From Pyxidicoccus trucidator (GTDB lineage Bacteria > Myxococcota > Myxococcia > Myxococcales > Myxococcaceae): a stretch of 64,000 nucleotides of DNA. Positions within the stretch are counted from its first letter, which is position 1; every line of letters starts with the position of its first letter. Positions 7,823 through 56,964 of this stretch are shown here, piece after piece. The notes below the pieces were generated by a model, which was not told the origin of the DNA, searched no databases, and worked only from the letters and a program-made list of their open reading frames with translations. The stretch covers positions 234,300 to 298,299 of the forward strand of contig NZ_JAAIXZ010000004.1 of NCBI RefSeq assembly GCF_010894435.1, given 5' to 3'. Made by a program: the position numbers and the translations under genes.

Positions 7823-7961
7823 CTCTCGGACTCCTTTCCTTCGTCCGAGAGGCAACGTGGCCCGCGCGAGAAGTCCCGGCAACGTCCCGCCGCCGGGGCC
7901 CTGGTGCTCCTTGTGCCCGCCCTTCCCGCCCCGCGGGACGGGTTGCGGAGGGCGTCACCGC

Positions 7962-38469: not shown

Positions 38470-38824
38470 CCTACGCGCGGCGAGTGGCCAGGCTACAGGC
38501 CAGGCCCCGCTTCCAGGACACCGGCCTACGGCCCCGCTGAGGGCAGGCCATGCCGGAGTGTGCACGGGCCCACGCTGGCCCAGCCCTCCAGGGCAGATAC
38601 CCCCGATTGAGTTGACATGGTGTCGTTCGGACACTATGTTGGTGTCGTAGAAACACGAACCTGAAGCGAGGCACCGCCCGCCGCGCCACGAGAGGAGAGG
38701 CGCGCTCGCGGCGCCCGCTTCAGGGAGCGTGAGGCGGCCGCCGTCCGTGGGGAGTCCACGGACGAGGCGCGCCGCCCTGTGCGTCGTCCCGCCGTCCGTG
38801 CCCGCAGAGGGCCACGGGAGAGTC
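38470..38824. other. Divergent intergenic region with a clear promoter
   Basis: 355 bases upstream of the PP2C gene. It contains the promoter and dyads at 38612-38656, then about 170 bases of untranslated leader. The leader is C/G-rich and includes AGAGGAGAGG at 38691-38700 not followed by a start codon. Confidence 0.5.
38612..38656 (+). promoter_or_regulatory. Sigma-70-type promoter with two tandem operator-like dyads
   Basis: TTGACA at 38612-38617, exactly 17 bases, then TATGTT at 38635-38640: close to the consensus and rare in this G+C-rich window. A dyad GTGTC-GTTCG-GACAC (38620-38634) fills the spacer, and a related 17-base word sits 22 bases downstream: TGGTGTCGT at 38618 and again at 38640, each ending ACAC. 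Two copies two helical turns apart, overlapping the promoter, look like a repressor site. It faces the PP2C gene. Confidence 0.7.
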
Positions 38825-39628: not shown

Positions 39629-39632
39629 CGCC

Positions 39633-41510
39633 ATGGACGTATGGCTCGAGGGGAAGAAGGTGCGGGTGGACCCGGCGAAGGCGCTGGGCAAGGGCGGCGA
39701 GGCGGATGTCTTTGATTTGGGCGATGGCCGCGCCCTGAAGCTGTTCAAGCCGCCCGAGCACCCCGACTACACGGGGCTGCCCGCGGAGCAGACCGCCGCG
39801 CGCATCCGCCTGGACGAGCACCAGAGCAAGCTGCGCGCCTTCCCCGTGGGAATGCCCGGCCGCGTGGTGGTGCCGCAGGTGCTCGCCACGGACAAGAAGG
39901 GCAAGTCGGTGCTGGGCTACGCCATGCGCAAGCTGGACGCGGTGGAGCCGCTGCGCCGCTTCGCGGAGCCGTCGTTCCGCCGCGCTGGCGCCACGTCCGC
40001 GCGAGTGGTGGACGTGCTGCGCGGGCTGCACCGCACGCTCGACGCCGTGCATGCGTCGGGCGTGGTGGTGGGGGACTTCAACGACCTCAACGTGCTGGTG
40101 GCGGGTGTGGCTGACGCGTACCTCATCGACGCGGACAGCTTCCAGTTCGGCGCCTACCTCTGCCCGGTGTTCACCGAGCGGTTCCTGGACCCGCTGCGAC
40201 TCGCGAACGGCGGTGCGGGGGGCCTGGTGCCCGCTCGGCCCGCGTCGGTGGAGAGTGATTGGTATGGCTTCGCGGTGACGGTGATGCAGGGGCTGCTGTG
40301 CGTGGGGCCTCATGGGGGCGTCCACCGTCCGAAGACTCCGGCGGGGAGGACGACGCCCGCGGGCCGGGTGCTCCAGCGCGTCACAGTCTTCCACCCGGAG
40401 GTGCAGTACCCCAAGCCCGCGCTGCCGCTAGCCACGCTGCCGGACGACGTGCTGCACCACCTGCACCGCGTCTTCGTGGAGGACCTGCGCGGAGCCTTCC
40501 CCCTCCCGCTGCTGGACGGGCTGCGCTTCACCGCGTGCGCCTCGTGCGGCGTGGAGCATGCGCGCGGGACGTGCCCCACGTGCCAGCCGAACGCCACGGC
40601 GGCGGCCACGCCCGTCACGTCGGCGCGCGGGCAGGTGACGGCGACGCGGCTGTTCTCCACGCGCGGAGTGCTGGTGCACGCCAGCGCCGAGGACGGCGTC
40701 CTGCGCTGGCTGTACCACGCGGACGGTGCGTACCGGCGCGAGGACGGGCGCGTCGTGCTGCGCGGGCCGTTGGACCCGTCGCTGCACTGGGCGCTCCAGG
40801 GGGACGTGACACTGGTGGGGCGAGGCGGGGAGGTGGCGGTGCTGGTGCAGGGACGGACGCCGGAGCGCGTGGGGGTGGACGCGCCCGAGGGGAAGCCCGC
40901 CTTCGCCGCCAACGCGCGACACCGCTACCAGGCCGTGGGGGGCGGCCTGTGGCGGGACGGGGCGTATGGGCCGGAGCGCATTGGCGACGTGCTCGAAGGG
41001 CAGACGCGGCTGTTCGTGGGGCCTCGCTTCGGGCTGGGCTTCCACCGGGCGGGCGGGCTGCGCGGGGCGTTCGTCTTCGATGCGGTGCGCTCGGGGTTGA
41101 AGGACGGGCTCGCGCTGCCATGGCCGTCGGGACAGCTCGTGGATGCGGACTGTGTCTTCGACGGGCCGAACGCGTGGCTGTTCCTGGTGGAGCAGGCCGG
41201 TGGGCGCACGGTGCACCACTGCGTGGTGGTGGGCTCGGACGGGACGGTTCGTGCGAGCGCGGTGGCGGACGCGGGGGACGGCTCGTGGCTGGGCAGCGGG
41301 ACGCGAGGCCGGTGCGCCGCGGGGGACGCGCTGTTCTGTGCGACGGACGCGGGGCTCACGCGGGTGGAGTTGCGGCAGGGGCGGCTGGAGGCGGTGAGGG
41401 AGTTTCCGGATGCCGAGCCCTTCGTGGACTCGGGCAGCCACCTCTTCCTGGTGAAGCAGGGGCTGGCGGTGGTGGGGCGGAAGGACATCGCCGTGCTGCG
41501 GATGTCTTGA
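39633..41510 (+). CDS. YegI/TerY-type protein kinase with zinc ribbon and C-terminal propeller-like region
   Basis: 625 residues from the ATG at 39633. The N-terminal kinase domain has GKGGEADVF, Lys in ALKLFK, catalytic loop VVGDFNDLNVLV (Asp148) in place of HRDxxxxN, and LIDADSFQF (Asp166) in place of DFG. These variant motifs are those of the YegI-like kinases seen beside PP2C and vWA genes. A zinc ribbon follows (C302, C305, C314, C317: CASC then CPTC). The C-terminal 300 residues are repeated beta segments with GxxxLxG-type turns, a probable propeller. Likely activity: phosphorylates a partner in the operon; catalytic Asp and Lys are kept. Confidence 0.85.
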   Translation: MDVWLEGKKVRVDPAKALGKGGEADVFDLGDGRALKLFKPPEHPDYTGLPAEQTAARIRLDEHQSKLRAFPVGMPGRVVVPQVLATDKKGKSVLGYAMRKLDAVEPLRRFAEPSFRRAGATSARVVDVLRGLHRTLDAVHASGVVVGDFNDLNVLVAGVADAYLIDADSFQFGAYLCPVFTERFLDPLRLANGGAGGLVPARPASVESDWYGFAVTVMQGLLCVGPHGGVHRPKTPAGRTTPAGRVLQRVTVFHPEVQYPKPALPLATLPDDVLHHLHRVFVEDLRGAFPLPLLDGLRFTACASCGVEHARGTCPTCQPNATAAATPVTSARGQVTATRLFSTRGVLVHASAEDGVLRWLYHADGAYRREDGRVVLRGPLDPSLHWALQGDVTLVGRGGEVAVLVQGRTPERVGVDAPEGKPAFAANARHRYQAVGGGLWRDGAYGPERIGDVLEGQTRLFVGPRFGLGFHRAGGLRGAFVFDAVRSGLKDGLALPWPSGQLVDADCVFDGPNAWLFLVEQAGGRTVHHCVVVGSDGTVRASAVADAGDGSWLGSGTRGRCAAGDALFCATDAGLTRVELRQGRLEAVREFPDAEPFVDSGSHLFLVKQGLAVVGRKDIAVLRMS

Positions 41511-41576
41511 GCGGAATGAACGTTCCTTTCAACGCGCGCGGGCCGGGGGCCCTCGCGCCACACAGGGGGTAGGACG

Positions 41577-42641
41577 ATGAGGACGCAAATCAAGGAGCTG
41601 CCGCTGCCGGGGTTCTACAAGGCGGACCACGCGGCGCAGTACGGCTACGGGCCGAACGCCGGGAAGCTGCAGGAGGCCGCGGTCAACTGGCGGGCGGCGA
41701 ATGACCTCTCCGTGGCGGCGACGGACAAGTTCAACCTGCACCTGCTCCTCATCGACGTGCAGAAGGACTTCTGCTTCCCGGAGGGCTCGCTCTACGTGGC
41801 GGGGCGCAGCGGGCGCGGGGCGGTGGACGACAGCCGCCGCATCGCCGAGTTCATCTACCGCAACCTCGGCGCGCTGACGAACGTGACGACGACGCTCGAC
41901 ACCCACTTCGCGTACCAGATTTTCTTCCCGTCCTTCTGGGTGGACCAGGACGACAAGCCGCTGACGGCGTACCGCGAGGTGACTCGCGAGCAGATTGAGC
42001 GCGGGCAGGCGCGGCCGAACCCGGCGATGGCGAAGTGGCTGTGCGGAGGCAACTACCCGTGGCTCCTGAAGCAGGTGAAGTACTACTGCGAGGAATTGGA
42101 GCGGGCGGGGAAGTACACGCTGTACCTGTGGCCGCCGCACTGCCTGCTGGGCAGCGACGGGCACGCGCTGGCGGGCGTGGTGCAGGAGGCGCGGCTGTTC
42201 CACTCCTTCGCGCGCGGCATGCAGTCGTGGGCCGAGGTGAAGGGCGGCAACCCGCTGACGGAGAACTACTCGGTGATGAGGCCGGAGGTGCTGTCGCGGC
42301 ATGACGGGCAGCCCCTGGCGCAGCGGAACACCCAGTTCCTCAAGACGTTGCTGACGGCGGACGCGGTGGTGATTGCCGGCCAGGCGGCGAGCCACTGCGT
42401 GAAGAGCTCCATCGATGACTTGCTGGGGGAGATTGTCGCGCAGGACGCGGCGCTGGCTCGCAAGGTGTACCTGCTCACGGACTGCATGTCGGCGGTGACG
42501 GTGCCGGACGGGAAGGGCGGCTTCGCGGCGGACTTCACGCCGCAGGCGGATGCGGCGCTGAAGCGCTTCGCGGACGCGGGCATGCACCTGGTGAGGTCCA
42601 CGGACCCGCTGGCGAGCTGGCCGGACCTGCGCATCGCCTGA
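41577..42641 (+). CDS. Cysteine hydrolase of the isochorismatase/nicotinamidase superfamily
   Basis: 354 residues; ATG preceded by GGGGGTAGGA. The catalytic set is present: Asp60 in LLIDVQKDFCF, a metal-type Asp-His pair in LDTHFAYQIFFPSFW, and Cys274 in GQAASHCVKSSI. It is longer than the usual 180-220 residues because of about 110 extra residues between the metal site and the Cys (including NYPWLLKQVKYYC) and an N-terminal extension. It might hydrolyse nicotinamide or a related amide. Its place between a YegI-type kinase and a vWA gene, with 66 bases to the kinase and 101 to the vWA gene, is unusual for this enzyme family. Confidence 0.85.
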   Translation: MRTQIKELPLPGFYKADHAAQYGYGPNAGKLQEAAVNWRAANDLSVAATDKFNLHLLLIDVQKDFCFPEGSLYVAGRSGRGAVDDSRRIAEFIYRNLGALTNVTTTLDTHFAYQIFFPSFWVDQDDKPLTAYREVTREQIERGQARPNPAMAKWLCGGNYPWLLKQVKYYCEELERAGKYTLYLWPPHCLLGSDGHALAGVVQEARLFHSFARGMQSWAEVKGGNPLTENYSVMRPEVLSRHDGQPLAQRNTQFLKTLLTADAVVIAGQAASHCVKSSIDDLLGEIVAQDAALARKVYLLTDCMSAVTVPDGKGGFAADFTPQADAALKRFADAGMHLVRSTDPLASWPDLRIA

Positions 42642-42742
42642 GCGGAGCCTGACGTCAACCGAGTGAATGCGGGACCTGCTCCCTCGCGGGAGCGGGAACG
42701 GCGGAGCCATGCCCTCGGGGAGAGGGCGAAGGAGCGAGGGAC

Positions 42743-43549
42743 ATGGGAAGCAAGGCGAGCGGTGGGCACGGCACGAGCATCCAGAAGCTCTTCGATGACG
42801 CGCACGCGGAGGGAGTGCTGAGCCCGGCGGGGTTGCAGGCGCTGACGGTGGTGGATTTGGGGGCGCAGATTCAGGCGGGGCTCGGCGTGTGCGTGGAGGA
42901 CGTGCAGGCCAGCGAGGTGGTGCTGGTGACGGTGATGCCGGATGACTCGGGGAGCATCTCCAGCGCTGGGCAGGAGAAGACGGTGTGTGATGGGCACAAC
43001 CTGGTGCTCGACGCGCTGCTGGCGAGCAAGCAGAAGGACGGCGTGCTGTTCCATACGCGGTACCTGAATGGGAATGCGCTGAACCCGTTCCGGGCGCTGG
43101 AGGACGTGGTGCGGATGCACCCGGGGAACTACCGGGCGGACCAGGGGACTCCGCTGTACGACCAGACGGTGGTGCTGCTGGGCACGGTGCTGGCGAAGGC
43201 ACAGGAGTTCAGCAGCAACGGCGTGCCGGTGCGGACGGTGACGCTGTTGATTACGGACGGCGCGGACATGCACTCGCAGAAGGCGAGGGCGAAGGACGTG
43301 GCGGCGCTGGTGAAGGACCTTCAGCGGGCGGAGAACCACATCATCGCGGCGATGGGGATTGATGACGGGAGCACCGACTTCCGCCGCGTGTTCCGGGAGA
43401 TGGGCATCGAGGACAAGTGGATTCTCACGCCGGGACAGAATGCGCAGGAGATTCGGGCGGCGTTCCAGGTGTTCAGCCAGAGCGCGGTGCGGGTGAGCCA
43501 GGGGGCGGCGAGCTTCAGCCGCACGGCGCTGGGCGGATTCGGGCGGTAG
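42743..43549 (+). CDS. vWA-domain protein (YegL/TerY-like)
   Basis: 268 residues. MIDAS motif D67-x-S69-x-S71 in MPDDSGSIS, Thr in DQGTPLYDQT and Asp in LITDGADMHS form the metal site of a von Willebrand A domain. The last 60 residues (WILTPGQNAQEIRAAFQVFSQ) are the short helical tail usual in TerY-like proteins. No signal peptide or membrane segment. vWA proteins of this kind act as phosphopeptide- or metal-dependent adaptors beside the kinase and phosphatase. Ribosome-binding site: a purine run ending AGGGAC. Confidence 0.85.
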   Translation: MGSKASGGHGTSIQKLFDDAHAEGVLSPAGLQALTVVDLGAQIQAGLGVCVEDVQASEVVLVTVMPDDSGSISSAGQEKTVCDGHNLVLDALLASKQKDGVLFHTRYLNGNALNPFRALEDVVRMHPGNYRADQGTPLYDQTVVLLGTVLAKAQEFSSNGVPVRTVTLLITDGADMHSQKARAKDVAALVKDLQRAENHIIAAMGIDDGSTDFRRVFREMGIEDKWILTPGQNAQEIRAAFQVFSQSAVRVSQGAASFSRTALGGFGR

Positions 43550-43587: not shown

Positions 43588-44133
43588 GTGGACGACTACC
43601 TCAAGGTGTTGCTGCTGGTGGGTGCCCGGCTTGAGCAGGCGGGCATCCCGTACATGTTGAGCGGCTCCACGGCGATGAACTTCTACGCGCGGCCCCGCAT
43701 GACCCGGGATGTCGACATCGTCGTTGAGTTGGGGAATGCGGATGTGGAGCGGGTGGTGACGCTCTTCCAGGAAGACTTTTCGGTCGATGAGCAGGAGATT
43801 CGTGAGGCGCTTGCTCGCCCGTCCCTCTTCAACCTCATCCACTACGACACCGTGGTGAAGGTCGACTGCATCATCCGCAAGAAGACTGCTTACCGGCAGG
43901 AAGAGTTCAAGCGACGGCGAACAACGGAGGTCAAGGGCCAACGCATCTGGCTTGTATCCGCAGAGGATCTCATTCTCTCCAAGCTCCACTGGGCACGTGA
44001 CAGCCTCTCCGAGATGCAGTTGGGCGATGTGCGCAATATCCTGGATGCGGTGCCTGACCTCGACTGGGCGTATATGGAGTATTGGGCCCGGGACCTCGGA
44101 GTCGAGCCTCTGCTGGAAAAGGTGAAGCGATGA
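43588..44133 (+). CDS. Nucleotidyltransferase (minimal NTase fold)
   Basis: 181 residues starting at GTG 43588. The NTase site is intact: G26-S27 in SGSTAMNFYARP, Asp41 and Asp43 in TRDVDIVVEL, and Asp93 in VVKVDCIIRK. The C-terminus is helical (SAEDLILSKLHWARDSLSEMQ). Bacterial genes of this type are often toxins or defence nucleotidyltransferases (AbiEii/MNT-like) paired with a small helical protein; here the small protein overlaps by four bases. It could also modify RNA or a protein. No strong ribosome-binding site seen. It lies 38 bases after the vWA gene. Confidence 0.8.
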   Translation: MDDYLKVLLLVGARLEQAGIPYMLSGSTAMNFYARPRMTRDVDIVVELGNADVERVVTLFQEDFSVDEQEIREALARPSLFNLIHYDTVVKVDCIIRKKTAYRQEEFKRRRTTEVKGQRIWLVSAEDLILSKLHWARDSLSEMQLGDVRNILDAVPDLDWAYMEYWARDLGVEPLLEKVKR

Positions 44134-44405
44134 ACGACACCCTTCCTCGTGCCGAAGCGCTCGTTCGCACGTTGCTGCTCCGGCGCTCCGGAGAAGAGCG
44201 GCTCACGATGGGCGCGGACATGTTCTCCGCTTCTCGCGCACTCATCGCCGCGTCTCTGCGGGAGGAAGGACTGGTGCCAGGCTCGGTCGAGTGGAAGCTC
44301 CGGTTGCTCGACCGGACCTACGGCTCAGAAATCTCGCCTGCTCAGCGTCAGCGGTTGCTGGAGCGTTGGCGCTCGGAGTCGGCCGGCCCGAGAGTTCATC
44401 GGTAA
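44130..44405 (+). CDS. Small helical partner of the nucleotidyltransferase
   Basis: 91 residues. The ATG overlaps the nucleotidyltransferase stop codon (ATGA at 44130-44133), so the two are translationally coupled. Sequence is charged and helical (ALVRTLLLRRSGEERLTMGA, LRLLDRTYGSEISPAQRQRL). A near copy occurs at 49332. Probably an antitoxin-like or accessory partner; the family is not recognised. Confidence 0.75.
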   Translation: MNDTLPRAEALVRTLLLRRSGEERLTMGADMFSASRALIAASLREEGLVPGSVEWKLRLLDRTYGSEISPAQRQRLLERWRSESAGPRVHR

Positions 44406-44650
44406 CTGATGGTCCACGCTCCGTCTGGGCGCGGGAGAGGGCATTGAGGGCGAGCAGAACTTGACGACCGGCAACGTGCCCAAGCGCTGCGCTCGGCGTT
44501 CCAGGTATTCAGCGATTGGGCTGCGCACGTAAGCGTTGATTTTCCGCAGAGCGGGAAGCTGGCCTCGAACGCTCCGAGACCAGCCTCCATAAGGCATGAA
44601 CATCAGCCATGCCATGCTTATGTCTCGGCCCTATTCGTGGGCGGGAAAGG

Positions 44651-47600
44651 TCACCAATCTTCGGGAACCTCGAAGCAGGGCGGCGGAATAGGCTCCTCGT
44701 ACAAGCTCGAAGACGAAGTCATGAAGCTTGAAGAAGGGCTCGATTCAGAGCTCAGCGGGTAGTAGCTGAGGCATTCACAATTGGGTTCATCTGTAGCTGC
44801 ATCACAATCATTGTTGATGCCGTCGTTGCAGACCTCAGTGTACCCAGGGTAGGCCCTCTTGCTCCCGTCGTTGCAGTCGGTGTTCGTGGCAACGTATCCG
44901 GAGGGTTTCGAGCAGGCTTGGATTGGGGTGCCTCTGCCGTATCCATCGCCATCCGCATCGCGATACCAATTCGAGCCGACACCGTCGTCCACTGCCCCAT
45001 TGCAATTGTTGTCCACGGAATCGCAGACTTCTGAAGCTCCAGGCCGGACGGCCGCGCTGGAGTCGTTGCAGTCGCTCGCGTTGGTCACATAGCCGCTGGG
45101 CTGGCCGCAGGCAGAGACCGGCGAGTTCGCGTTGCCGTCCCCGTCCCCGTCCGCGTCACGGTAGAAGGTCGACTGCACGCCTTCGTCGACTCCTCCAGCG
45201 CAGTTGTTGTCGATGCCGTCGCACACCTCCGTGACTCCCGGCCTGACGCTCGCATTGGCATCATTGCAATCCGTGGTGTTCGACACGTAGCCGCTCGGCT
45301 GTGAGCACGCCTGCGTCGACTGACCTGCGCTGCCGTAACCGTCACTGTCCGCGTCACGGTAGAAGGTCGACTTGACGCCCTCATCCGTCAAGCCGTTACA
45401 GTTGTTGTCCACCCCATCGCAGCTCTCCGATCCGCCGGGTCGGATGCTCGAGCTGGAGTCGTTGCAGTCGCTGGCGTTCGACACGTAGCCACCGGGCTGC
45501 GAACACGCAACCGCCGGTTGGCTCGCGTTGCCATAGCCGTCGCCGTCCGCATCGCGGTAGTACGTGGAGCCCACGCCCTCATCCGTCGTGCCATTGCAGT
45601 TGTTGTCGGCGTTGTCGCAGACCTCTGTCCCTCCGGGCCGGATGTTCGCGTTCGCGTCGTTGCAGTCCGTGCTGTTCGACGCATAGCCGCCGGGCTGTGA
45701 GCACGCGTGGGCCGGTAGACCCACGTTGCCGTAACCGTCGCCGTCCGCATCGCGGTAGTACATAGAGCCCACGCCCTCATCCGTCGTGCCATTGCAGTTG
45801 TTGTCGGCCCCGTCGCAGACCTCCGCCACACCGGGCTTGATGCCCGCGCTGGAGTCATTGCAGTCGCTGGCATTCGATACGTAGCCAGCGGGTTGGCTGC
45901 ACTTCTGCAGGGTGTTGGTCGAGGTGCCGTAGGTGTCCCCGTCCGCGTCGCGGTACCAGGTCAGGGTCGCGAGGCCCTCGTCCACCGCGCCGCTGCAGTT
46001 GTTGTCCACCGAGTCGCACACCTCCGTCGCTCCAGGCTTGATGGCCACGTCGGCGTCATTGCAGTCGGTGCCGCTCGCGACGAAGCCCGCAGGCTGCGCG
46101 CAGGCCTGGGTCGACTGTCCGCTGCCGAAGCCATCCCCGTCCGCGTCGCGGAACCACGCGTTCATCAGCCCTTCGTCCACCTGCATGTCACAGTCGTTGT
46201 CCACGGCGTCGCAGACCTCCGCCGCGCCAGGCTTGATGGCCGCGCTGGTGTCATTGCAGTCGCTCGCCACCGAGACGTAGCCCGCGGGCTGCAGGCAGTT
46301 CTGGACGGACTGGCTCGCGCTGCCGAAGCCGTCGCCGTCCGCGTCGCGATACCACGCCTGGGTGGGCAGGCCCTCGTCCACCTGGGAATCGCAGTCGTTG
46401 TCCACGCCGTCGCAGGACTCCGGGGCCCCCGGGTGGAGGCTTGCCTGGGCGTCATTGCAGTCCCCGGGATTCAGAGCGTGCCCTGCAGGCTGCATACACT
46501 CCTGCACCGCCTGGGCCGTCAGGCCGTAGTTGTCGCCGTCCTGGTCGCGGTACCACGTCTGGAACGTCAAGCCGTCATCCGGCTGCCCGTTGCAATCGTT
46601 GTCCTTGCTGTCGCACACCTCCGCCGAGGACGGCTCCTTCTGCACGCACTCGATGGCGCCGTGGGTGCAGTACGTCACGCCCTCGCCGCACACGCCCTGC
46701 TGCCCGGTGGAGCACGTCTCCAGGCCGCCCGGGTTGCCGTCGTCCACCTCTCCGTCACAGTCATTGTCGAGGCTGTCGCACTCCTCTGCGGACGCGGCCT
46801 CGTTCTGCTGGCAGACCACGCTGCCGTCAGCACAAGCCGTGGTGCCCGCGGCGCAGATGCCCTGCTGCCCCGTCGCGCAGTTCTCACCACCGCTCGGGTT
46901 GCCGTCGTCCACGACTCCGTCGCAACTGTCGTCTATGCCGTTGCACTGCTCCGGTGCACCTGGATACGTCGTCGGCATGTAGTCGTCGCAGTCGAACTCC
47001 TCCACGAAACCGGGAGACGGGTCGCAGGCCAGCTCGGAGATGTACTCGTCTCCAAAGCCGTCCATGTCGCCGTCGAAGTAGAACGTGTTGATGAGCAGGG
47101 TGGATGCCGCAGCCGTCACAGGCGTGCTGGAGGTGCTGCCCAGACCGAGCTGTCCCTGGCCGTTGTTGCCCCAGGCCCATACGGGACAGCCAGGGCGCAG
47201 CGCCAGTGCGTGCTGGGCGCCCGCCGCGATGGCCTTCGCATCCGCGAGCCCCGTCACATTCACGGGCGAGGCGCTGTTCACCGTGGACCCATTGCCGAGC
47301 TGGCCGAAGGCGTTGTGCCCCCAGGCCTTCACCAGGCCGTTGCCCATGATGACCAGCGAGCTGTTGTGTCCCGCCGTGATGGCCGTGGCCGCGAACACGC
47401 TGCCCACGGGAGTGGGGGACAGCACGGGCGTGCTGCTGGTGCTGCCCGTGCCCACCTGCCCGAAGGTGTTCTGACCCCAGGCCCACACGTTGCCGAACTG
47501 CTCATCGATGATGAGCGAGTGACCCACACCCGCCGCAATGGCCTTGGCCTGCGGCAGCCCCACCACCTGCACCGGCGACAGCACCGTGGTGCTGGTGCTC

Positions 47601-48343
47601 CCGGTACCCACCTGGCCGAAGGTATTCATGCCCCAGCCCCACGCCTTCCCAGCCGCGTCCAGCGCCAGCGCGTGATTCACACCGGCGGCCATGGAGCGAA
47701 TCGTGGGCAGGCCCGCCACCACCGTGGGATTGGGCACCGAGGCGCTGGTCGCGCCCGTGCCCACCTGCCCGGAGGCGTTCTGTCCCCAGGCCCACAGCCG
47801 GCCATCCGTGCCGAGCGCGAGCGAGTAGTTCCCGTTGGCCGCGATGGCCTGGATGCCGGACAGTGCCGCCACCTTCGTCGGAACCAGCACCGTGCCACCG
47901 GCAGTACCGATACCCGCCTGTCCGGAGGCATTCTGCCCCCACGCCCACACGTTGCCGCTGACATCCAGCGCCAGCGAGTGGCCGACACCCGCGGCAATCG
48001 CCTTGATGGCGGGGAGCCCGCTCACCGGAGACGGCTGCGGCAGGGGCGTGCTGCTGGTGCTGCCCGTGCCCAGCTGCCCGGCCACGTTCTGGCCCCAGGC
48101 CCAGACCTCTCCATCCTTCCTCAGGAACAGCGAGTGATAGGCCCCCGAGGCGACCGTCTGCGGCACCCGTACCGAGGTGAGCCCCTGACGCGCCGTCGCG
48201 GTGTCGACCTCAACGTCAGCCGCTGTAGGCGGCTCTCCACAGCCCATGGACACAAAGAGGAGGACGGCCGCACAACCCGTGAGCCTGTTCCTCAGTCCTG
48301 CCAAGCCTTGTCTTCTCAAGTCACTGCTCCTGCGGTCATCCAA
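44651..48343 (-). CDS. RCC1-repeat and MopE-type metal-motif lipoprotein
   Basis: 1230 residues from the ATG at 48343 (AGAGGCAGGG upstream). Lipobox SMGC at Cys35. Seven RCC1 repeats follow (for example GVWAWGQNVAGQLGTG-type, LWAWGQNASGQVGTG), enough for a full propeller. From residue about 440 come ten MopE-type units of about 60-65 residues: YRDADGDGYG (a calcium-like loop), a CxQPxGY linker, DCNDSxAxIxPG and EVCDGxDNNCNGxxDEG. A Ser/Pro-rich tail closes it. MopE proteins are surface copper/calcium-binding proteins of methanotrophs; this one probably binds calcium. Paralogue of the gene at 54409. Confidence 0.88.
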   Translation of the reverse strand: MDDRRSSDLRRQGLAGLRNRLTGCAAVLLFVSMGCGEPPTAADVEVDTATARQGLTSVRVPQTVASGAYHSLFLRKDGEVWAWGQNVAGQLGTGSTSSTPLPQPSPVSGLPAIKAIAAGVGHSLALDVSGNVWAWGQNASGQAGIGTAGGTVLVPTKVAALSGIQAIAANGNYSLALGTDGRLWAWGQNASGQVGTGATSASVPNPTVVAGLPTIRSMAAGVNHALALDAAGKAWGWGMNTFGQVGTGSTSTTVLSPVQVVGLPQAKAIAAGVGHSLIIDEQFGNVWAWGQNTFGQVGTGSTSSTPVLSPTPVGSVFAATAITAGHNSSLVIMGNGLVKAWGHNAFGQLGNGSTVNSASPVNVTGLADAKAIAAGAQHALALRPGCPVWAWGNNGQGQLGLGSTSSTPVTAAASTLLINTFYFDGDMDGFGDEYISELACDPSPGFVEEFDCDDYMPTTYPGAPEQCNGIDDSCDGVVDDGNPSGGENCATGQQGICAAGTTACADGSVVCQQNEAASAEECDSLDNDCDGEVDDGNPGGLETCSTGQQGVCGEGVTYCTHGAIECVQKEPSSAEVCDSKDNDCNGQPDDGLTFQTWYRDQDGDNYGLTAQAVQECMQPAGHALNPGDCNDAQASLHPGAPESCDGVDNDCDSQVDEGLPTQAWYRDADGDGFGSASQSVQNCLQPAGYVSVASDCNDTSAAIKPGAAEVCDAVDNDCDMQVDEGLMNAWFRDADGDGFGSGQSTQACAQPAGFVASGTDCNDADVAIKPGATEVCDSVDNNCSGAVDEGLATLTWYRDADGDTYGTSTNTLQKCSQPAGYVSNASDCNDSSAGIKPGVAEVCDGADNNCNGTTDEGVGSMYYRDADGDGYGNVGLPAHACSQPGGYASNSTDCNDANANIRPGGTEVCDNADNNCNGTTDEGVGSTYYRDADGDGYGNASQPAVACSQPGGYVSNASDCNDSSSSIRPGGSESCDGVDNNCNGLTDEGVKSTFYRDADSDGYGSAGQSTQACSQPSGYVSNTTDCNDANASVRPGVTEVCDGIDNNCAGGVDEGVQSTFYRDADGDGDGNANSPVSACGQPSGYVTNASDCNDSSAAVRPGASEVCDSVDNNCNGAVDDGVGSNWYRDADGDGYGRGTPIQACSKPSGYVATNTDCNDGSKRAYPGYTEVCNDGINNDCDAATDEPNCECLSYYPLSSESSPSSSFMTSSSSLYEEPIPPPCFEVPEDW

Positions 48344-48686
48344 TCGCCCTGCCTCTCTCGGGCTGGTGGATGACGTTTCAGTCGGGGGGTTCCCCTCATG
48401 GGCAGTGGGTCACTGATGCTGTCCCGGTGGGTTGAGTCCAACCCATGGGATGGCTGTCCATGGCTCCGGTCCAGGAGGGAAACGAGAGGCGGAGCCTTTG
48501 TCGTCCTGGACGGATTTCTTGGGACAATTGCCACGAATTTGTTTTCTGTGACCTGCTTGCAAGAGCTTCACGTTTCAAAATACAAGAAGGCCATTCGCCG
48601 CGTGTCTGGGGAAGGACGACGGAGCTCCGGTCGACCACGGGCACATGGCTCAATGCGCCCCGGCCCCGGCGTCCCGGAATCCAGTC
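48344..48686. other. Divergent intergenic region, partly A+T-rich
   Basis: 343 bases between the RCC1-MopE gene (minus) and the sigma factor gene (plus). It has a perfect dyad tgggttg-agtc-caaccca (48428-48445) and an A+T-rich segment at about 48510-48595, likely promoter sequence, but no clear hexamers. Confidence 0.4.
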
Positions 48687-49265
48687 ATGCCATCACGACC
48701 CACGCGGCTCACGCCGCAGGTAGGGGCATGTCCTCCGTCCGAGGCTCGGCATTGGCCGGCTGTCTCGGGCGCGGACCTCAGTGCGCTCTATCGCCATCAC
48801 GGGCGTGCGCTCCAGCAGCGGGCAAGGGCCCTGCTCGGAAGCACGGACGAGGCCGAGGACGTACTGCAGGAGGTCTTCCTGGCCATGCTGGCCAGCCCAG
48901 GGATGTACCGTGGCGAGGCCTCCGTCTTCACGCTGCTGTACCAGATGGTCACCCACAAGGCCCTGGACCGGTGCCGCGCGCGGGCGCGCAGGCGGGGCTG
49001 GCTCGAACAATTGCGCAGGGGAATGGCCGAGCCTGTGGCGGGCGGAGGGCAGGGAAGCATCGAGAGCGTCGAGGCGGCCCGGGACCTGGGGCGGATGGCA
49101 CGCGCGGAAGCCCCTCGGGTGCTCACCGCGGCCCTGCTGCACTTCGTGGACGGCCACACGCAGGGCGAAGTCGCCCAGGTGCTGGGCGTGTCGCGGAAGA
49201 CGGTGGTGCGCATGCTCGGGCAGCTCACGGTGAGGGCGCGCGGCTGCTCCACGCAGCGTCATTGA
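48687..49265 (+). CDS. ECF-type RNA polymerase sigma factor
   Basis: 192 residues from ATG 48687 (an ATG at 48645 is an alternative; neither has a strong ribosome-binding site). Region 2: LYRHHGRALQQRARALLGST, EDVLQEVFLAML and the HKALDRCRAR segment. Region 4: LHFVDGHTQGEVAQVLGVSRK, a helix-turn-helix for the -35 element. No region 1 or 3 and no anti-sigma gene next to it. Divergently transcribed from the RCC1-MopE gene, which it may regulate. Confidence 0.85.
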   Translation: MPSRPTRLTPQVGACPPSEARHWPAVSGADLSALYRHHGRALQQRARALLGSTDEAEDVLQEVFLAMLASPGMYRGEASVFTLLYQMVTHKALDRCRARARRRGWLEQLRRGMAEPVAGGGQGSIESVEAARDLGRMARAEAPRVLTAALLHFVDGHTQGEVAQVLGVSRKTVVRMLGQLTVRARGCSTQRH

Positions 49266-49282
49266 TGAGAAGATAGGGGGCG

Positions 49283-49331
49283 CTCAGGGTCGGACCCTGG
49301 GAGTCGACCCTCTGCCGGAGAAGGTGAAGCG
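49283..49331 (+). pseudogene. Remnant of a nucleotidyltransferase 3' end
   Basis: About 49 bases that align with the last codons of the gene at 43588-44133: here TLGVDPLPEKVKR, there DLGVEPLLEKVKR. The stop codon is lost by the change of the overlapping ATGA to ATGG. The rest of the gene is absent. Confidence 0.75.
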
Positions 49332-49634
49332 ATGGACGACACCCTGCCTCGTGCCGAAGCACTCGTTCGCACGTTGCTGCTCCAGCGCTCCGGAGAAGAG
49401 CGCCTCAAGATGGGGGCGGGCATGTTCTCCGCTTCTCGCGCGCTCATCGCCGCGTCGCTGCGGGAGGAAGGGCTGGTTCCGGGCTCGGTCGAGTGGAAGC
49501 TCCGGCTGTTGGACCGGACCTACGGCTCGGAAGTCTCGCCTGCCCAGCGTCAGAGGTTGCTCGAACGCTGGCGCTCCGACTCCGCGCCATCGATGAACAC
49601 GGCCCCCGGTAAAGACGAGCTCCCTGCGTCGTGA
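49332..49634 (+). CDS. Orphan copy of the nucleotidyltransferase partner protein
   Basis: 100 residues; its first 85 differ from the protein at 44130 at only six positions (79 identical). The last 15 residues are unrelated. No nucleotidyltransferase gene precedes it, only a short remnant, so if expressed it acts without its own partner in cis. AAGG before the ATG may serve as ribosome-binding site. Confidence 0.75.
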   Translation: MDDTLPRAEALVRTLLLQRSGEERLKMGAGMFSASRALIAASLREEGLVPGSVEWKLRLLDRTYGSEVSPAQRQRLLERWRSDSAPSMNTAPGKDELPAS

Positions 49635-49683: not shown

Positions 49684-50079
49684 TCACTCGGGCCGGTAGA
49701 CGTTCGCGACAGCTCCCTTGTCGAACCGGGTTGAGTTCACCAGTCGCAGGTTCAGCGGCTGCTCGCGCTCCGGGAACAGGCGGAGCCCGCTACCAAGCAC
49801 TACGGGGTGGATGAGGAGTCGGTACTCGTCGATGAGCCCGTGCTTCACGAGGGACTGCACGAGCCGCGCGCCTCCGTGGACCAGGAGGTTCTTGCCTGGC
49901 TCCCGCTTCAGGCGGGCCACCTCGTCCGCGAGGTCTCCGCTGGCCACCCTCGAATCCGTCCAGGTCGCTTCCTTCAGCGTCTTCGAGAACACGACCTTGG
50001 GAATCTCGTTCATCGGCGCTGCATACGGCTCGGTCGACGTGGGCCAGTGGGCTTCAATGAGGATGGCTGGGATCGACAC
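49684..50079 (-). pseudogene. 5'-truncated dihydrofolate-reductase-family gene (RibD C-terminal-like)
   Basis: The 131-residue frame (from GTG) covers the C-terminal two thirds of a RibD_C/DHFR-family protein: PKVVFSKTL, LKREPGKNLLVHGGARLV, DEYRLLIHPVVLGSGLRLF. Full-length relatives have about 50-60 more residues at the N-terminus, including the NADPH-binding strand; here homology starts at about EAHWPT and only some 50 bases separate it from a hairpin. Most likely a relic of deletion or a broken transfer. It could still be expressed as a short protein. Confidence 0.7.
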
Positions 50080-50172: not shown

Positions 50173-52914
50173 TCAGTGCACGCGGGCAGGCGGCAGGTTG
50201 GACGGCGCCAGCTCACCCGACTTGAGCTGCGTGGCCGAGGGGCAGACCAGGGCCTTCAGGTCCGCCGCGCGGCGGCCCAGGTCGTCGAACACTCGCGTCG
50301 ACCGCGTCACCGGGTCTGTCACCGTCGTCCCCTTCAGGTAGGGCGACAGCACCGCCACCCGGCCCGCCGCTCGCGGCGCCACGTGGACGAACTCTGTCTG
50401 CGTCTCCCCCGCGTGGCACCCGCTGCACGTGTTGATGGAGAACTTGTGCCGTGCCTCCGTCGACACGCCCGGTGCACGCCAGAAGAAGTCCAGCGGCGTC
50501 GCCGCCATCGCTCCCAGGAAGGGCACCCCGCCCAGGCTGTTCGGCACCGTGTGCCGCTCCGCGATGATGTCCGCCTGGTTCTGCTGGATGAAGCTCGCCA
50601 GCGTGGCCGTGTTCTCGAAGTGCATCGCGGGCGTCAACTTCACCGTCTCGGGCATCAGCCCCTGGGCCGTGAGCACGAACTCACGCATCTCCCACGGCTC
50701 CGCCAGCTCGATTTCATTCGTCCGAATCTGGTTCAGCGCGCTGCCCGCCTGCCGGCCCGTCATCACTCCCGCCTTCGCGAACCGGTCCGTCAGCGCCTGG
50801 AGCTTCGCGTTGTAGCCCGTGTTCCCCACCTTCAGCTTGCCCAGCTCGTGCCAGTCCGTCGCCCATTTCTGGATGGCTTCCGGCGTGCCGCCCGGCAGCG
50901 CGTACTCCAGGATGACCGTGAACTCGAGCGGCGCTCCGTTCGCATCCACCACGCCGAAGACGAAGCGGCCCTCTCCCGCGTGGGCGCCCGGCTGGCGCAG
51001 GTCCATGCGGTTGACGATGGCCAGCAGCCGGAACGGCGCCTTGCTGAAGTCCAGCGGCTTGCCCGCTCCACCGCTGCGCGCCTCCCACGGCCCCAGCACC
51101 CGCGTCTGCATCTCCTGGCGCGCCGGCAGGTTCAGCCCGTTGACCACCTGCTTCGTCAGCCACGTCTTCAGCCACGCCCGCGCCAGCGGCGAGGGGTCCT
51201 GGCCGCCCGCCATCTCCCGCAGCAGCGTGCCGATGTGCCAGGCGCCTCCGGGCGCCGTGCGCACCGGGTCCTCCACCACCGACAGCGCCGTCACCATCAG
51301 CTCGCTCGGGCGGTCGATGGTGCACGTCGTCGCCTGGCACGCATACGTGGACTCGCAGCCGTTGGCCGTGTTGCCGTCGCAGTCGTAGTAGCCCGGCTGG
51401 CAGGTGTTGCCACACGTCGCCGCCGTGCACACGCCCTGCGCATAGGGCCCGTCCTGGCACGTCGTGCCGCAGGCACCGCAGTGGTCCTCGTCCGTCGTCA
51501 GGTTCACCTCGCAGCCGTTGGTCGAGTTGCCGTCACAGTCCGCCGTGCCCGCGGGGCAGCGAATCTCGTACGCGGGCCCCTCCGTGCAGGTGGACTCGTT
51601 GGCCAGCGCGTCCCTCGCCGCGACGAACACCCGGTGGCTGCTGCCCGCGCCGAACGGCATCGTCGCGCTGAAGCGGCCTTCCGCATCCGCCTGCACCGTC
51701 CGCACCGGAATCCCCATGCACGCGACGTCGATGAAGATGCCCACCGTGGCGCGGGGCTCCGCCGTGCCCGTCACCGTGAGCTGACGGCCGGTGCTCGTGT
51801 ACTGCCACTTCGTGTCCGTGACGACCGGTGGCGGAGGCGGCGTGTTGTCGTTCTGGTACTCCACGGAGTTGGAGCAGCCGGACGTCGTCTGGCCGTAGCC
51901 GCTCGAGTCCTTCGCCTGGGCGGACACCGTCACCTTCGCGTCCTTCGCCACGCTCGTCTGGTAGGAGAAGGCGCCCACGGCGTCCGTCGTCAGCACCGTG
52001 TCCACCGGACCCTCGCAGTTCGCCTGCTTGAAGATTTCCACGGTGACGCGCGGCCTGGCGCGCCCGTCGAAGATGGGCTGCTGGCTGAGCCCCGGCGAGC
52101 CGGGCCGCGTGCCCAGCAACACCGGCGCCATCAGCGTGTCGCCCGTGCCGCCACCGTACGGGTACTCCAGCGTCGGGCTGCACTGAGAGGGATTGCCGGC
52201 CGTGTCATACGCGCGCACGGAGTACGTGCCACCCGGGGCGCTCGACGGCCCGCTGATGGGCACGTCGCAGTGGTAGCTCGACCCCACCTCCGTGGTCGAC
52301 ACCACGCTGCCGTTGCAGTCCGGGCCGTTGTAGACGTGCACCGTGGCGCCGGACTCCGCTTCGACGGTGAGGCCCCGGCCCTGCGTCGAGCCCTCCTCGC
52401 CCCACGAGGGCACCGGTGTCGTCGGCGCGGTGCGGTCCACGATGACGAACGCACCCAGGCGGAGGTTGTTGCTCTCGCTCGTCTCGAGGACCTCGTCGTC
52501 CGCGTCCACCTGGGCGGCCAGTTGGTAGCTGCCCTCGGGCATGGGCGGCGCGGTGACCCAGGCGCTCACGTCCTTGCACTCTCCCGGCAGCAGCACGGCG
52601 CTGGGGCTCTGCGAGAGCCTCCAGTCCTTTCCGTTGATGACGCCGTCCGCGGACAGGAAGAAGGCCACCTCCGTTATCCCGTAGTCCGTGCCCGTGTTGC
52701 AGACGCGCGCCTGCACCCTCCGCGAGCCCGCGCCCAGGTCCGTCGGGCCCGTCAGCGATTCGAGCCGGAAGTCGAGCGTGCCGGTGGTGGTGTCGGGCCA
52801 CTCCGAGGTGGGGGGCCGGTCGACATCCCAGTCCATTTCATCGCCGGGAGGCTCGATGACACAGCCCATGAGGGTTCCCGCGAGCGTGAGTGCCCACCAG
52901 CGCCTTGCGTGCAT
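50173..52914 (-). CDS. Large CARDB/Ig lipoprotein with Cys-rich module
   Basis: 913 residues. Signal MHARRWWALTLAGTLMGC (lipobox LMGC). A CARDB-like domain (residues about 45-150: FRLESLTGPTDLGAGSRRVQ, LETSESNNLRLG), then at least three Ig-like units (TVEIFKQANC, RATVGIFIDVAC), then a Cys-rich stalk (CPAGTADCDGNSTNGC, CGACGTTC, CDGNTANGC). The last 350 residues are a globular part with a single CSGCH near the end; no other haem motif. Membrane-anchored surface protein; ligand unknown. Upstream gap of 182 bases to the GT4 gene on the other strand. Confidence 0.82.
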   Translation of the reverse strand: MHARRWWALTLAGTLMGCVIEPPGDEMDWDVDRPPTSEWPDTTTGTLDFRLESLTGPTDLGAGSRRVQARVCNTGTDYGITEVAFFLSADGVINGKDWRLSQSPSAVLLPGECKDVSAWVTAPPMPEGSYQLAAQVDADDEVLETSESNNLRLGAFVIVDRTAPTTPVPSWGEEGSTQGRGLTVEAESGATVHVYNGPDCNGSVVSTTEVGSSYHCDVPISGPSSAPGGTYSVRAYDTAGNPSQCSPTLEYPYGGGTGDTLMAPVLLGTRPGSPGLSQQPIFDGRARPRVTVEIFKQANCEGPVDTVLTTDAVGAFSYQTSVAKDAKVTVSAQAKDSSGYGQTTSGCSNSVEYQNDNTPPPPPVVTDTKWQYTSTGRQLTVTGTAEPRATVGIFIDVACMGIPVRTVQADAEGRFSATMPFGAGSSHRVFVAARDALANESTCTEGPAYEIRCPAGTADCDGNSTNGCEVNLTTDEDHCGACGTTCQDGPYAQGVCTAATCGNTCQPGYYDCDGNTANGCESTYACQATTCTIDRPSELMVTALSVVEDPVRTAPGGAWHIGTLLREMAGGQDPSPLARAWLKTWLTKQVVNGLNLPARQEMQTRVLGPWEARSGGAGKPLDFSKAPFRLLAIVNRMDLRQPGAHAGEGRFVFGVVDANGAPLEFTVILEYALPGGTPEAIQKWATDWHELGKLKVGNTGYNAKLQALTDRFAKAGVMTGRQAGSALNQIRTNEIELAEPWEMREFVLTAQGLMPETVKLTPAMHFENTATLASFIQQNQADIIAERHTVPNSLGGVPFLGAMAATPLDFFWRAPGVSTEARHKFSINTCSGCHAGETQTEFVHVAPRAAGRVAVLSPYLKGTTVTDPVTRSTRVFDDLGRRAADLKALVCPSATQLKSGELAPSNLPPARVH

Positions 52915-54408: not shown

Positions 54409-56853
54409 TTAAAAACAGGCGGGAAGTCCTTCGTCTGCCACCCAGTTACAGTTGTTGTCCAGGCCGTCGCACACTTCGATTCCGCCTGGGTACATGTTGG
54501 CGTACGAGTCATTGCAGTCCGTGTTGTCCGTGACATGGTTGGGAGGGGGGCGGCAGTCCTGATGAGGATGACGGCTGACGGGGTTGCCGAATCCATCGCC
54601 GTCACCGTCGTGGTAGTACCAGTTCTGGGGCGTGCCTTCGTCCGCCTGCCCGTCGCAGTCGTTGTCCAGCCCATCGCAGACCTCGGGGGCTCCGGGATGG
54701 ATGCTCGAATTGCCATCGTGGCAGTCGGCGCCATTGCTGCTGTCCCTGTAGCCCCCTGGGCTCGAGCAGGCATACAGCGCCTGGCCCGCGTGGTCATAGC
54801 CATCGTTGTCGAAGTCCTTGTACCAGAGGCGGGGCTGGCCGGTGTTCGCGTCGCTGTCGTTGCAGTCGCTGGCGTTCACCACGTAGCCGGCAGGCTGAAA
54901 GCAGGCGTAGGTCGGCCGCTGGCCGTTGCCCCAGCCGTCGCCGTCCGCATCGCGATAGAAGACCTGGCTGCCGTTCTCGTCCGCCGCGCCATTGCAGTTG
55001 TTGTCCACCCCGTCGCAGACCTCGGCGGCACCAGGACGGATGCTGGCGTTGGAGTCGTTGCAGTCTCTGTCGTCCGAGACGTAGCCCGAGGGCTGCGAGC
55101 AGCGGTCCCGGGAGTTGCTCGGATTGCCGTAGCCATCTCCGTCCTGGTCCCGGTACCACGTCGAGCCCACGCCCTCGTCCGCCGCGCCGTTGCAGTTGTT
55201 GTCCGCTCCGTCGCAGACCTCGGAGGCGCCGGGACGGATGCTGGCGTTGGAGTCGTTGCAGTCACCGGCGACCGTGACGTGGCCGGACGGCTGCTGGCAG
55301 CTCTGCATGGCGGTGGCGGCGTTGCCGTAGCCATCCCCGTCCTGGTCCTGGTACCACGTCTGACTCACCTGCCCGTCGTCCACCGCGCCATCGCAGTTGT
55401 TGTCGAGCCCGTCGCAGATGTCGGAAGCGCCGGGCCTGACGGCCGCGTTGGAGTCGTTGCAGTCGCCAGCGTCGGACAGGTGGTCGGCGGGCTGTGCACA
55501 GCTGCTCGTCGCCAGGTACTCGATGTCGCTCCCGAAGCCGTCCCCGTCCGCGTCCCGATGATAGATTTTGAGGAGGCCCGCCACCGGAGCCGTCGTCGGC
55601 GCGGAGGCGGTATTGCCAGTCGCGAGCTGGCCCTGGGTGTTGTCGCCCCATCCCCAGACTGGAGGCTTCGCGGGGTCGAACGGTGACGGCGGCTCGCAGT
55701 CGTCATGCAGCACGAACGCGTGATTCGCGCCGGCGAAGAGGGCCTTCCCGTACGCCAGCTGGTTCCCACCCACCAGCACATTCACCGGATTGGGACTGTC
55801 CACGGTGTCGCCAGCCCCCAGCTGTCCCTCCGCGTTCCGGCCCCACGCCTTCACGAAGCCGACATCCGCCATGATGAGCAGGGAGAAGGACTCCCCCGCG
55901 GCGATGTCCGTGACGACGAACACGTTGTTGCTCACCCATGCGGGCTGCAGCACGGGAGCGGCGCTGGCGACGCCGTTGCCCACCTGCCCGTAGTCGTTCC
56001 GGCCCCAGGCCCACAGGCGGCTGTCGGGGCCGTCGTCGGCAATCAGCAGGGAGTGTCCTCCGCCCGCTGCAATGGCCTTGGCCAGCGGGGCGCTCGCCAT
56101 CAGGGTGGGGGACACCACCGGAGAGCTCGTATTGCCAGTGCCGACCTGGCCGTAGGTGTTCTGACCCCAGCCCCAGATTCGCCCGTCCGTCCCCAGCGCG
56201 AGCACGTGGTTCCGGCCCGCGGAGACGGAGCGGATGACGGACAGCCCCGCCACGAGGCCAGGAGAAGCGACAGCGGCGCTGGTTCCGCCATTGCCCAGCT
56301 GTCCTTCCGTGTTCTGTCCCCAGGCCCACACCCGCCCGTCCGTTCCCAGCGCGAGCGAGGTGTGGCCTCCCGCCGCGATGGCCCGGATGCCGGAGAGGAG
56401 GGGCACCTGGATGGGGGCCAGCACGGCGGCCCCCACCTGCCCGTTGCCCACCTGTCCGGAGCCATTCGCACCCCAGGCCCACACCCGGCCATTCACGTCC
56501 AATGCCAGCGAGTGGGCGGCGCCCGCTGCCGCCATCCGGATGGCGGGAAGCCCTCGCACCTTCCGGGGCAGGGGAACGGGAGTCGTGCTGGAGGCTCCGG
56601 TGCCCAGCTGTCCCTGCGTGTTCTGGCCCGAGGCCCAGACCTCGCCATTCGTTCGCACGAACAGCGAGTGGTGGTCGCCCGCGCCCACCGACATCCGGTC
56701 ATTCACCGGAGCCAGTGTCTGGCTTGTGCTGGTCAGTGCTGACCCATCCTCGGCCTTCAGGCTGGACTCGCTGCAGCTCATGACCGCCAGCGACACGGCC
56801 ACCACGTAACAGGGGAAGTAGCGCTGCCCCGCGTTGGGACTTCGTTTTCTCAC
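54409..56853 (-). CDS. Second RCC1-MopE lipoprotein
   Basis: 814 residues. I start it at GTG (complement of 56851-56853), seven bases after AGGAG; this yields a normal lipoprotein signal (VRKRSPNAGQRYFPCYVVAV, then SLAVMSC). An ATG at 56934 has no such site. Seven RCC1 repeats (VWAWGANGSGQVGNG, IWGWGQNTYGQVGTG) precede six MopE-type units (YRDADGDGFG, YQDQDGDGYG, FYRDADGDGWG); the fourth lacks its second half. Closely related in layout to the gene at 44651 but shorter. Probably calcium-binding surface protein. Confidence 0.87.
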   Translation of the reverse strand: MRKRSPNAGQRYFPCYVVAVSLAVMSCSESSLKAEDGSALTSTSQTLAPVNDRMSVGAGDHHSLFVRTNGEVWASGQNTQGQLGTGASSTTPVPLPRKVRGLPAIRMAAAGAAHSLALDVNGRVWAWGANGSGQVGNGQVGAAVLAPIQVPLLSGIRAIAAGGHTSLALGTDGRVWAWGQNTEGQLGNGGTSAAVASPGLVAGLSVIRSVSAGRNHVLALGTDGRIWGWGQNTYGQVGTGNTSSPVVSPTLMASAPLAKAIAAGGGHSLLIADDGPDSRLWAWGRNDYGQVGNGVASAAPVLQPAWVSNNVFVVTDIAAGESFSLLIMADVGFVKAWGRNAEGQLGAGDTVDSPNPVNVLVGGNQLAYGKALFAGANHAFVLHDDCEPPSPFDPAKPPVWGWGDNTQGQLATGNTASAPTTAPVAGLLKIYHRDADGDGFGSDIEYLATSSCAQPADHLSDAGDCNDSNAAVRPGASDICDGLDNNCDGAVDDGQVSQTWYQDQDGDGYGNAATAMQSCQQPSGHVTVAGDCNDSNASIRPGASEVCDGADNNCNGAADEGVGSTWYRDQDGDGYGNPSNSRDRCSQPSGYVSDDRDCNDSNASIRPGAAEVCDGVDNNCNGAADENGSQVFYRDADGDGWGNGQRPTYACFQPAGYVVNASDCNDSDANTGQPRLWYKDFDNDGYDHAGQALYACSSPGGYRDSSNGADCHDGNSSIHPGAPEVCDGLDNDCDGQADEGTPQNWYYHDGDGDGFGNPVSRHPHQDCRPPPNHVTDNTDCNDSYANMYPGGIEVCDGLDNNCNWVADEGLPACF

Positions 56854-56964
56854 GGCACGGCTCCTGGGGACATCCCCGGACCCGGCCTCTCCCGGATGGG
56901 GATGCGGTGGGGGGACAGACTCCCTCTTGCTCACGCGGTGGCAGGAGTTACCCGTGTACGGATT

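Follow-up and report, generated by a model that had tools for sequence, protein, structure and literature searches.

A lone near-copy of a putative MenA1-like antitoxin gene, probably left behind by toxin loss, in Pyxidicoccus trucidator

Why should the chromosome of Pyxidicoccus trucidator carry, about 5 kb from an intact two-gene unit formed by a nucleotidyltransferase (NTase) gene and a small partner gene, a second copy of the partner that stands alone? We examined this question in a window of 64,000 nucleotides (G000:C4:234300-298299 of the 12.67-Mb genome), whose features are collected in Table 1 and follow the order [VWA-NTase-partner]-[VWA scar-MopE-ECF-NTase scar-partner-DHFR]-bigD. 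The explanation that we favour, and hold to be probable on sequence comparison, is that the orphan is an antitoxin kept after loss of its toxin, and that it derives from a MenAT1-like system with reversed gene order.

Table 1. Features of the VWA-bigD site in the window (window coordinates)
Feature	Position	Strand	Remarks
VWA-like gene, left border of the site	42743..43549	+	authors' reading of the sequence, no Pfam match
Intact MenT1-like nucleotidyltransferase (NTase), putative toxin	43588..44133	+	181 aa, GTG start
Partner 1, putative antitoxin	44130..44405	+	91 aa; start overlaps NTase stop (ATGA)
Scar, 3' end of second VWA copy	44432..44534	+	similarity to 43394-43498
RCC1/MopE-repeat protein, between both partner copies	44651..48343	-	domain matches
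ECF sigma factor, directly upstream of the orphan	48645..49265	+	family match
ECF-scar linker	49266..49290	+	similar in G069 (L044 about 8275-8303)
NTase scar, 41 bases of the 3' end before the partner's start	49291..49331	+	holds likely Shine-Dalgarno (about 49317-49327)
Orphan partner	49332..49634	+	100 aa; NTase stop overlap lost (ATGG)
RibD_C/dihydrofolate-reductase-like (DHFR) gene	49684..50079	-	family match
bigD, encoding a large protein (Ig-like and CARDB domains); right border of the site	50173..52914	-	

The VWA-like gene closes a run read in one direction (38729-43549), which encodes PP2C, a 625-aa protein, an isochorismatase-like protein and the VWA-like protein. Neither the 625-aa protein nor the VWA-like protein has a Pfam match; we read the former as kinase-like and the latter as VWA-like, and the run resembles the phosphatase-kinase-VWA triads of tellurite and stress loci. 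The RCC1/MopE-repeat protein, whose gene is divergent from the ECF sigma gene, gives 7 RCC1 and 11 MopE-type metal-binding motif matches and is related by cross-matches to a second long minus-strand protein at 54409-56934. The MopE-ECF block is also present at the same site in G069, and a MopE-type gene lies beyond bigD in G059.

Two partner copies and two scars

Protein alignment confirmed the original prediction that 79 of the first 85 residues of the orphan are identical to those of partner 1; the exceptions are N2D, R18Q, T26K, D30G, I68V and E83D. At the DNA level, 44089-44383 and 49291-49585 match ungapped at 89.2%. Since this match begins at 44089/49291, it already covers 41 bases of the NTase gene ahead of the partner's start, and aligning both regions thus recovers the shared upstream sequence, the NTase 3' end included. 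About 40 bases of that gene had been expected to persist; in the 41 that do, 35 agree (85.4%). The peptide GVDPLPEKVKR, held to match in both copies, does so closely (9/11 residues) but not exactly, as the pair encodes GVEPLLEKVKR. The change of the overlapping ATGA to ATGG can be read directly from the sequence: codon 2 went from AAC to GAC, and the NTase stop was lost because of it.

The whole genome holds just two copies of the partner (E ≤ 0.01) and one NTase (E ≤ 1e-5), so that the likeness of the copies is not a matter of chance. We also found a second scar, absent from the earlier description: the stretch that follows partner 1 is the decayed 3' end of a VWA gene, 68.6% identical to its counterpart (E 9e-9). 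With the NTase scar and the VWA scar, both edges of the duplication are therefore visible. The idea of a segmental duplication or recombination that kept the partner alone is strengthened by the two scars and by site patterns that place the copies nearest each other; what did not hold is the orphan as a simple later copy of 44130, in view of the synteny of the site and an ECF junction common with G069 (see below).

A MenT1-like nucleotidyltransferase and its partner

The NTase matches Pfam AbiEii at 23.4 bits, above the cut-off of 22.5. When the NTase and seven relatives are combined into a profile, MenT1 (8AN4/8AN5) comes up at E 5e-5, behind 5UVD, a nucleotidyltransferase-like protein, at 1.3e-5. 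With the structure model (pLDDT 93.2), the first four Foldseek rows are all MenT1/MenAT1 (E 9e-9 to 2e-7), and a second fold comparison (VIA) places MenT1/MenAT1 in the top three (Z 17.2, 17.0 and 16.1), followed by 5UVD at 13.3. The protein possesses R37 M38 T39 R40 D41, with R37, T39, R40 and D41 at MenT1's own numbers, and its K132 and D147, invariant in 20 sequences, both fall five short of MenT1 K137 and D152, a pairing made by spacing and not by a printed alignment (MenT1 residue numbers as given in the accessible part of PMC11375011). PADLOC yielded weak unnamed candidates alone, for two NTases (E 0.012 and 0.022). Judged by its model, the upstream gene is a MenT1-like nucleotidyltransferase, with MenT1 as the best PDB fold match.

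AbiE is a type IV toxin-antitoxin system, in which the AbiEi-type antitoxin has a winged helix. Although the NTase reaches the AbiEii cut-off, neither window partner has an AbiEi match in Pfam, and the model of the orphan shows four helices in 100 aa and no strands; AbiE was rejected as a candidate on these two counts. As for an MNT-HEPN pair, a HEPN match in Pfam was not obtained for the partner either, and a diverged HEPN could escape such a search.

Assigning the partner is less direct. Pfam (up to E 0.1) and NCBIfam return no family for either window partner, 0/11 partners of the window's type match PF18993 directly, and Pfam over these 11 gives GPP34 (E 0.024) and VMAP-M19 (E 0.11) in one member each. 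Myxococcaceae relatives of the NTase, however, have a small gene just upstream that is matched by the partner profile, the best E being 2.5e-8 among the reading frames of the NTase-relative loci. Comparison by hhalign of the window-type partner profile with the partners of related NTases gives a probability of 96.8 (E 2.8e-10), and 13 of 16 such partners match PF18993, the Rv0078B antitoxin, at E ≤ 0.1 (best 1.6e-5), below the curated cut-off wherever bits are given. According to the accessible part of PMC10435456, Rv0078B is MenA1, which neutralises MenT1. The small partner thus most likely belongs to the Rv0078B/MenA1 antitoxin family, through related pairs only; together with the likeness of the NTase to MenT1, this chain makes the pair most likely a MenAT1-like toxin-antitoxin system in reversed gene order, in line with the earlier view of it as a probable toxin and antitoxin. 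MenA1 itself was not found by profile or fold search of the PDB with the partner: profile A1 had no credible match (best E 1.1), and Foldseek with the orphan model returned 28 rows, the best at E 3.5. The best match of profile A5 (4.6e-6), a designed PPR repeat protein aligned over 26 positions with 0 passing stretches, was taken as compositional and discarded.

MenAT1 (Rv0078A/Rv0078B; 8AN4/8AN5/8RR5), as far as covered by the accessible parts of PMC10435456 and PMC11375011, shares with the window pair the fold and similar size of the toxin, the R37-x-T39-R40-D41 stretch and the organization as a two-gene unit with a short helical antitoxin, in which no DNA-binding domain was found. In contrast to MenAT1, the toxin gene of the window pair comes first, with a stop-start overlap; close relatives of the window partner measure 86-100 aa against 68 aa of MenA1 and are tied to PF18993 through intermediates alone; and the pair occupies a chromosomal site in Myxococcaceae alongside another antitoxin copy that lacks a toxin. 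In related pairs of the family the antitoxin comes first, and the accessible part of PMC10435456 places menA1 upstream of a menT-like frame in 15/21 cases, the other 6 being with unknown genes. The opposite gene order, the lack of a direct PF18993 match and the failure of the PDB searches to find MenA1 count against the explanation that we favour.

Under that explanation, 43588-44405 would be a MenAT1-like operon with the NTase toxin first, and the ATGA overlap would couple translation of the small helical antitoxin to that of the toxin. If it works as MenT1 does, the NTase would extend tRNA ends with added nucleotides; the partner would bind and inactivate it, perhaps by bringing about the phosphorylation of T39, as the family suggests.

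Toxin loss among relatives and the history of the site

The comparison set comprises one genome per species. We found the VWA gene in 27/27 genomes of the genus (E ≤ 1e-40) and the partner in 7/27 (E ≤ 1e-5, window genome counted), in all seven of them at the VWA-bigD site. In six relatives (G054, G059, G068, G069, G071 and G079), VWA and bigD border a single partner. The stretch after VWA varies strongly across the 27 genomes, and pieces of the DHFR gene adjoin the partner also in G054 (Pyxidicoccus caerfyrddinensis CA032A) and G068 (Myxococcus sp. RHSTA-1-4). A scan of named genomes found 4 loci.

Fourteen partner copies lie downstream of this NTase type, 11 in the family plus G100, G193 and G194 (the partner-first loci G161 and G068:C43 are left out). 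The NTase is intact in five: the window pair, G054, G059, G193, where the partner ends about 20 residues early, and G194. Conversely, all three intact NTases of this type that came from the family NTase search (G000, G054, G059) have the partner, two more having been found through the partner. In the other nine copies, in nine genomes, the NTase is dead or missing and the partner frame is open. A scar after the ECF gene characterizes the window orphan and G069; G079, G042 (Hyalangium versicolor H56D21) and G088 have lost the NTase core in frame but retain the gene's start and tail, so that frames of 39, 38 and 84 codons, respectively, run from a GTG to where the partner begins; the front part is lost in G071; frameshifts, which could be errors, occur in G068 and G100; and the remnant in G083 is weak (E 3e-4, profile positions 57-90). 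G083, G088 and G100 are fragmentary assemblies. The intermediate states that the original prediction proposed to look for in related strains are thus present in related species, as states of toxin loss.

The three internal deletions are all in frame, which chance would give in 1 of 27 cases, and their excess over chance is suggestive only. In the antitoxin-first group there are two internal deletions, one in frame (L096) and one not (L098); in L096 (G010:C60) the antitoxin-first pair with its NTase core lost in frame lies at 1746-1982. The antitoxin-first sample had 34 rows, with 30 loci judged and 3 dropped for contig ends (L086, L092, L099), and the NTase is intact in 20/27 judged loci. Toxin loss thus amounts to 9/14 in toxin-first against 7/27 in antitoxin-first copies (Fisher P 0.023; the samples are from different taxa, and in L093, one of the seven, the partner is broken too), so that a tie between gene order and toxin loss is only suggestive.

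The same counts bear on whether the partner serves some function unrelated to the NTase, perhaps together with the PP2C-kinase-VWA genes or the ECF factor, the NTase being dispensable. It is retained where the NTase is gone (9/14 copies), always occupies the VWA-bigD site within the genus (seven genomes), and stands downstream of the ECF gene in two species. Yet, VWA occurs without a partner (E ≤ 1e-5) in 20/27 genomes of the genus, which shows that the neighbours can do without the partner, and partner relatives elsewhere mostly adjoin an intact NTase, in the 20 of 27 judged loci mentioned above. We regard such an independent job as very unlikely.

What is kept of the NTase gene follows a pattern. 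In 8/11 copies compared, a stretch like GGAGAAGGTGAAGC precedes the partner's start and encodes the NTase's last residues, and the other three have CAGGTGA (G071), GGAGG (G083) and GAGG (G088) instead. We take this stretch for the likely ribosome-binding site of the partner.

As for the order of genes at the site, G069 shows VWA-geneX-MopE-ECF-scar-partner-bigD, with no NTase there, and its sister G054 shows VWA-geneX-NTase-partner-DHFR piece-bigD. The ECF-scar linker of the window is similar to that of G069 with a score of 13, and 0/1000 shuffles score as high. Because the ECF-scar-partner junction of the orphan is common with G069, it is either older than the window genome or has moved between species. 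In the window, the paired copy is on the VWA side and the orphan on the bigD side, and set against the orders in G054 and G069, the window appears to carry one chromosomal site in two versions, toxin-bearing and MopE-ECF, arranged in tandem with the second VWA worn to a scar. GeneX (131 codons; L044 3462-3857 in G069, also in L043 of G054; 88.6% identical) adjoins VWA and has no match within 1.5 kb of VWA in the window or the other 24 genomes of the genus. G079 retains an ECF 3' remnant downstream of the partner (L045 about 7815-7856, E 2e-4); the partner there was therefore on the left side of the ECF gene and not on its right. The trace of an ECF gene in G054 was marginal (E 0.012) and was not relied on.

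Divergence adds to this picture. The two window copies of the partner are separated by a dS of 0.35, the copies of G054 and G069 by 0.28, and the window copies from those of these two species by 0.73-1.01; for six flanking genes compared between the window and G054/G069 dS is 0.12-0.42, and for the NTase against G054 it is 0.90. Site patterns make the window copies sisters by 21 sites to 1, and the tree joins them at support 68/86. The orphan as ortholog of G069's partner in a two-row clade was rejected (AU P 0.002), but the sister relationship of G069 and G054 biases this test; the grouping of the orphan with both of them is not rejected (P 0.21). That result and the tree support of only 68/86 count against the explanation that we favour. 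Taken with the close relationship of the copies, the shared junction speaks for recombination or gene conversion in the lineage of the window genome. VWA and its scar differ at 0.41 per site, near the partners' dS of 0.35 (dN 0.04), and the VWA scar is a possible clock for the event that may also have produced the orphan.

Applied to the site, the explanation we prefer would make the orphan the antitoxin of a second site version, in which, judging from G054 and G069, the MopE-ECF block replaced nearly all of the NTase gene and left the 41-base tail carrying the antitoxin's likely ribosome-binding site. Homologous recombination or unequal duplication would then have put both versions in tandem. 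Among relatives, states with the antitoxin alone could arise repeatedly because loss of the toxin gene is harmless, the antitoxin cannot go first, and the antitoxin stays useful or at least harmless.

A related possibility is anti-addiction, or resident immunity: antitoxin-only loci would be selected as protection against related NTase toxins arriving by recombination, a full pair could be lost and regained, and the orphan would have shielded the cell on the arrival of NTase-partner 1. A double state of just this kind is present in the window, antitoxins were kept and toxins lost in several lineages with different break points, and the stretch after VWA is highly variable among the 27 genomes. 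The window partners are nearest each other, though (the 21 sites to 1), which local duplication or gene conversion fits equally, and the tree is compatible with more than one direction and timing. We consider this sequence of events rather unlikely.

Constraint on the orphan and its possible role

Over the 83 codons after the start, the window copies differ by 19 synonymous and 7 non-synonymous changes (omega 0.11). When the changes are polarised by four relatives, 5 non-synonymous and 8-9 synonymous ones fall on the orphan branch. This departs at P 0.004-0.010 from the absence of constraint, under which 73% would be non-synonymous (site proportions, no transition correction). The paired branch has 1 and 9, with no significant difference between the two branches (Fisher P 0.18). 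Codon 60, with two changes in one codon, was counted as synonymous by hand on both branches, and three unresolved synonymous sites were left out, the range 8-9 allowing for one. The orphan thus looks to be under constraint, perhaps less than the pair, in a signal that is detectable but weak.

This bears on whether the orphan is neutral debris, that is, a functionless leftover of the duplication and the MopE-ECF insertion, too young to have decayed. Five amino-acid changes on its branch against one on the paired branch, a dN that exceeds that of partner 1 to 7/7 relatives, the D30G change in an almost invariant column and the lost stop overlap all agree with it. They could reflect relaxed constraint or early decay, and we count them against the explanation that we favour. 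A consensus scan for sigma-70-like promoters likewise found 0, with 0.5 expected, and terminator-like elements numbered 1 against 2.9 expected. However, a 100-codon gene running free would, by our reckoning, have collected far more non-synonymous changes at dS 0.35 and probably a stop, while non-synonymous changes are 5 of 13-14 where 73% were expected. The VWA scar, maybe of the same event, has decayed to the 68.6% given above, and the nine toxin-less partner copies of nine genomes are all open. Debris therefore strikes us as unlikely.

If the orphan is instead an antitoxin kept after toxin loss, it would most likely still make an antitoxin like MenA1, expressed from its present place behind the ECF gene, and its product may be able to add to neutralisation of the intact toxin 5 kb away. 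A role as a decoy antitoxin, raised in the original prediction, is possible.

Orphan antitoxins as such are known and common; 2253 occurrences are reported for the Klebsiella pneumoniae complex in the accessible part of PMC7192599. Like the orphan, those antitoxins are toxin-less, many with part of the old context, and anti-addiction is among the roles proposed in that part of the paper. Its scope is 233 antitoxin groups in one species complex, whereas here one site is followed across species, with its break points. The menA1 genes that lack an adjoining menT in PMC10435456 resemble the orphan as antitoxins of this family with no known toxin; toxin remains or in-between states are not described for them in the accessible part, in contrast to the 3' scar and graded states found here. 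Searches on myxobacterial nucleotidyltransferases with antitoxins and AbiE gave, at title level, nothing but work on archaeal immunity, and among the matches listed for Rv0078B, MenA1 or PF18993 no title concerned myxobacteria. Within the literature searched, three things are new: a branch with reversed gene order, a series of graded toxin-loss states at a single site, and the presence of both site versions in the window.

In several relatives the toxin was lost and the antitoxin kept, an indication that cells may benefit from retaining the antitoxin by itself. The states found form a natural series, from the intact pair through a frameshift or an in-frame core deletion to a bare scar, in which the toxin gene dies and the antitoxin gene stays. 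They link the little-studied MenAT1 family to myxobacteria, in reversed gene order, and make the question of debris, decoy or immunity testable in one species group, with an intact toxin in the same genome. Tentatively, and with doubts, the site may be an antitoxin-only immunity locus, at which selection keeps a MenA1-like antitoxin and just enough of the toxin gene for translation across many myxobacterial lineages, the toxin being lost and regained by recombination. If so, the window genome would have been caught with the toxin-bearing and toxin-less versions side by side.
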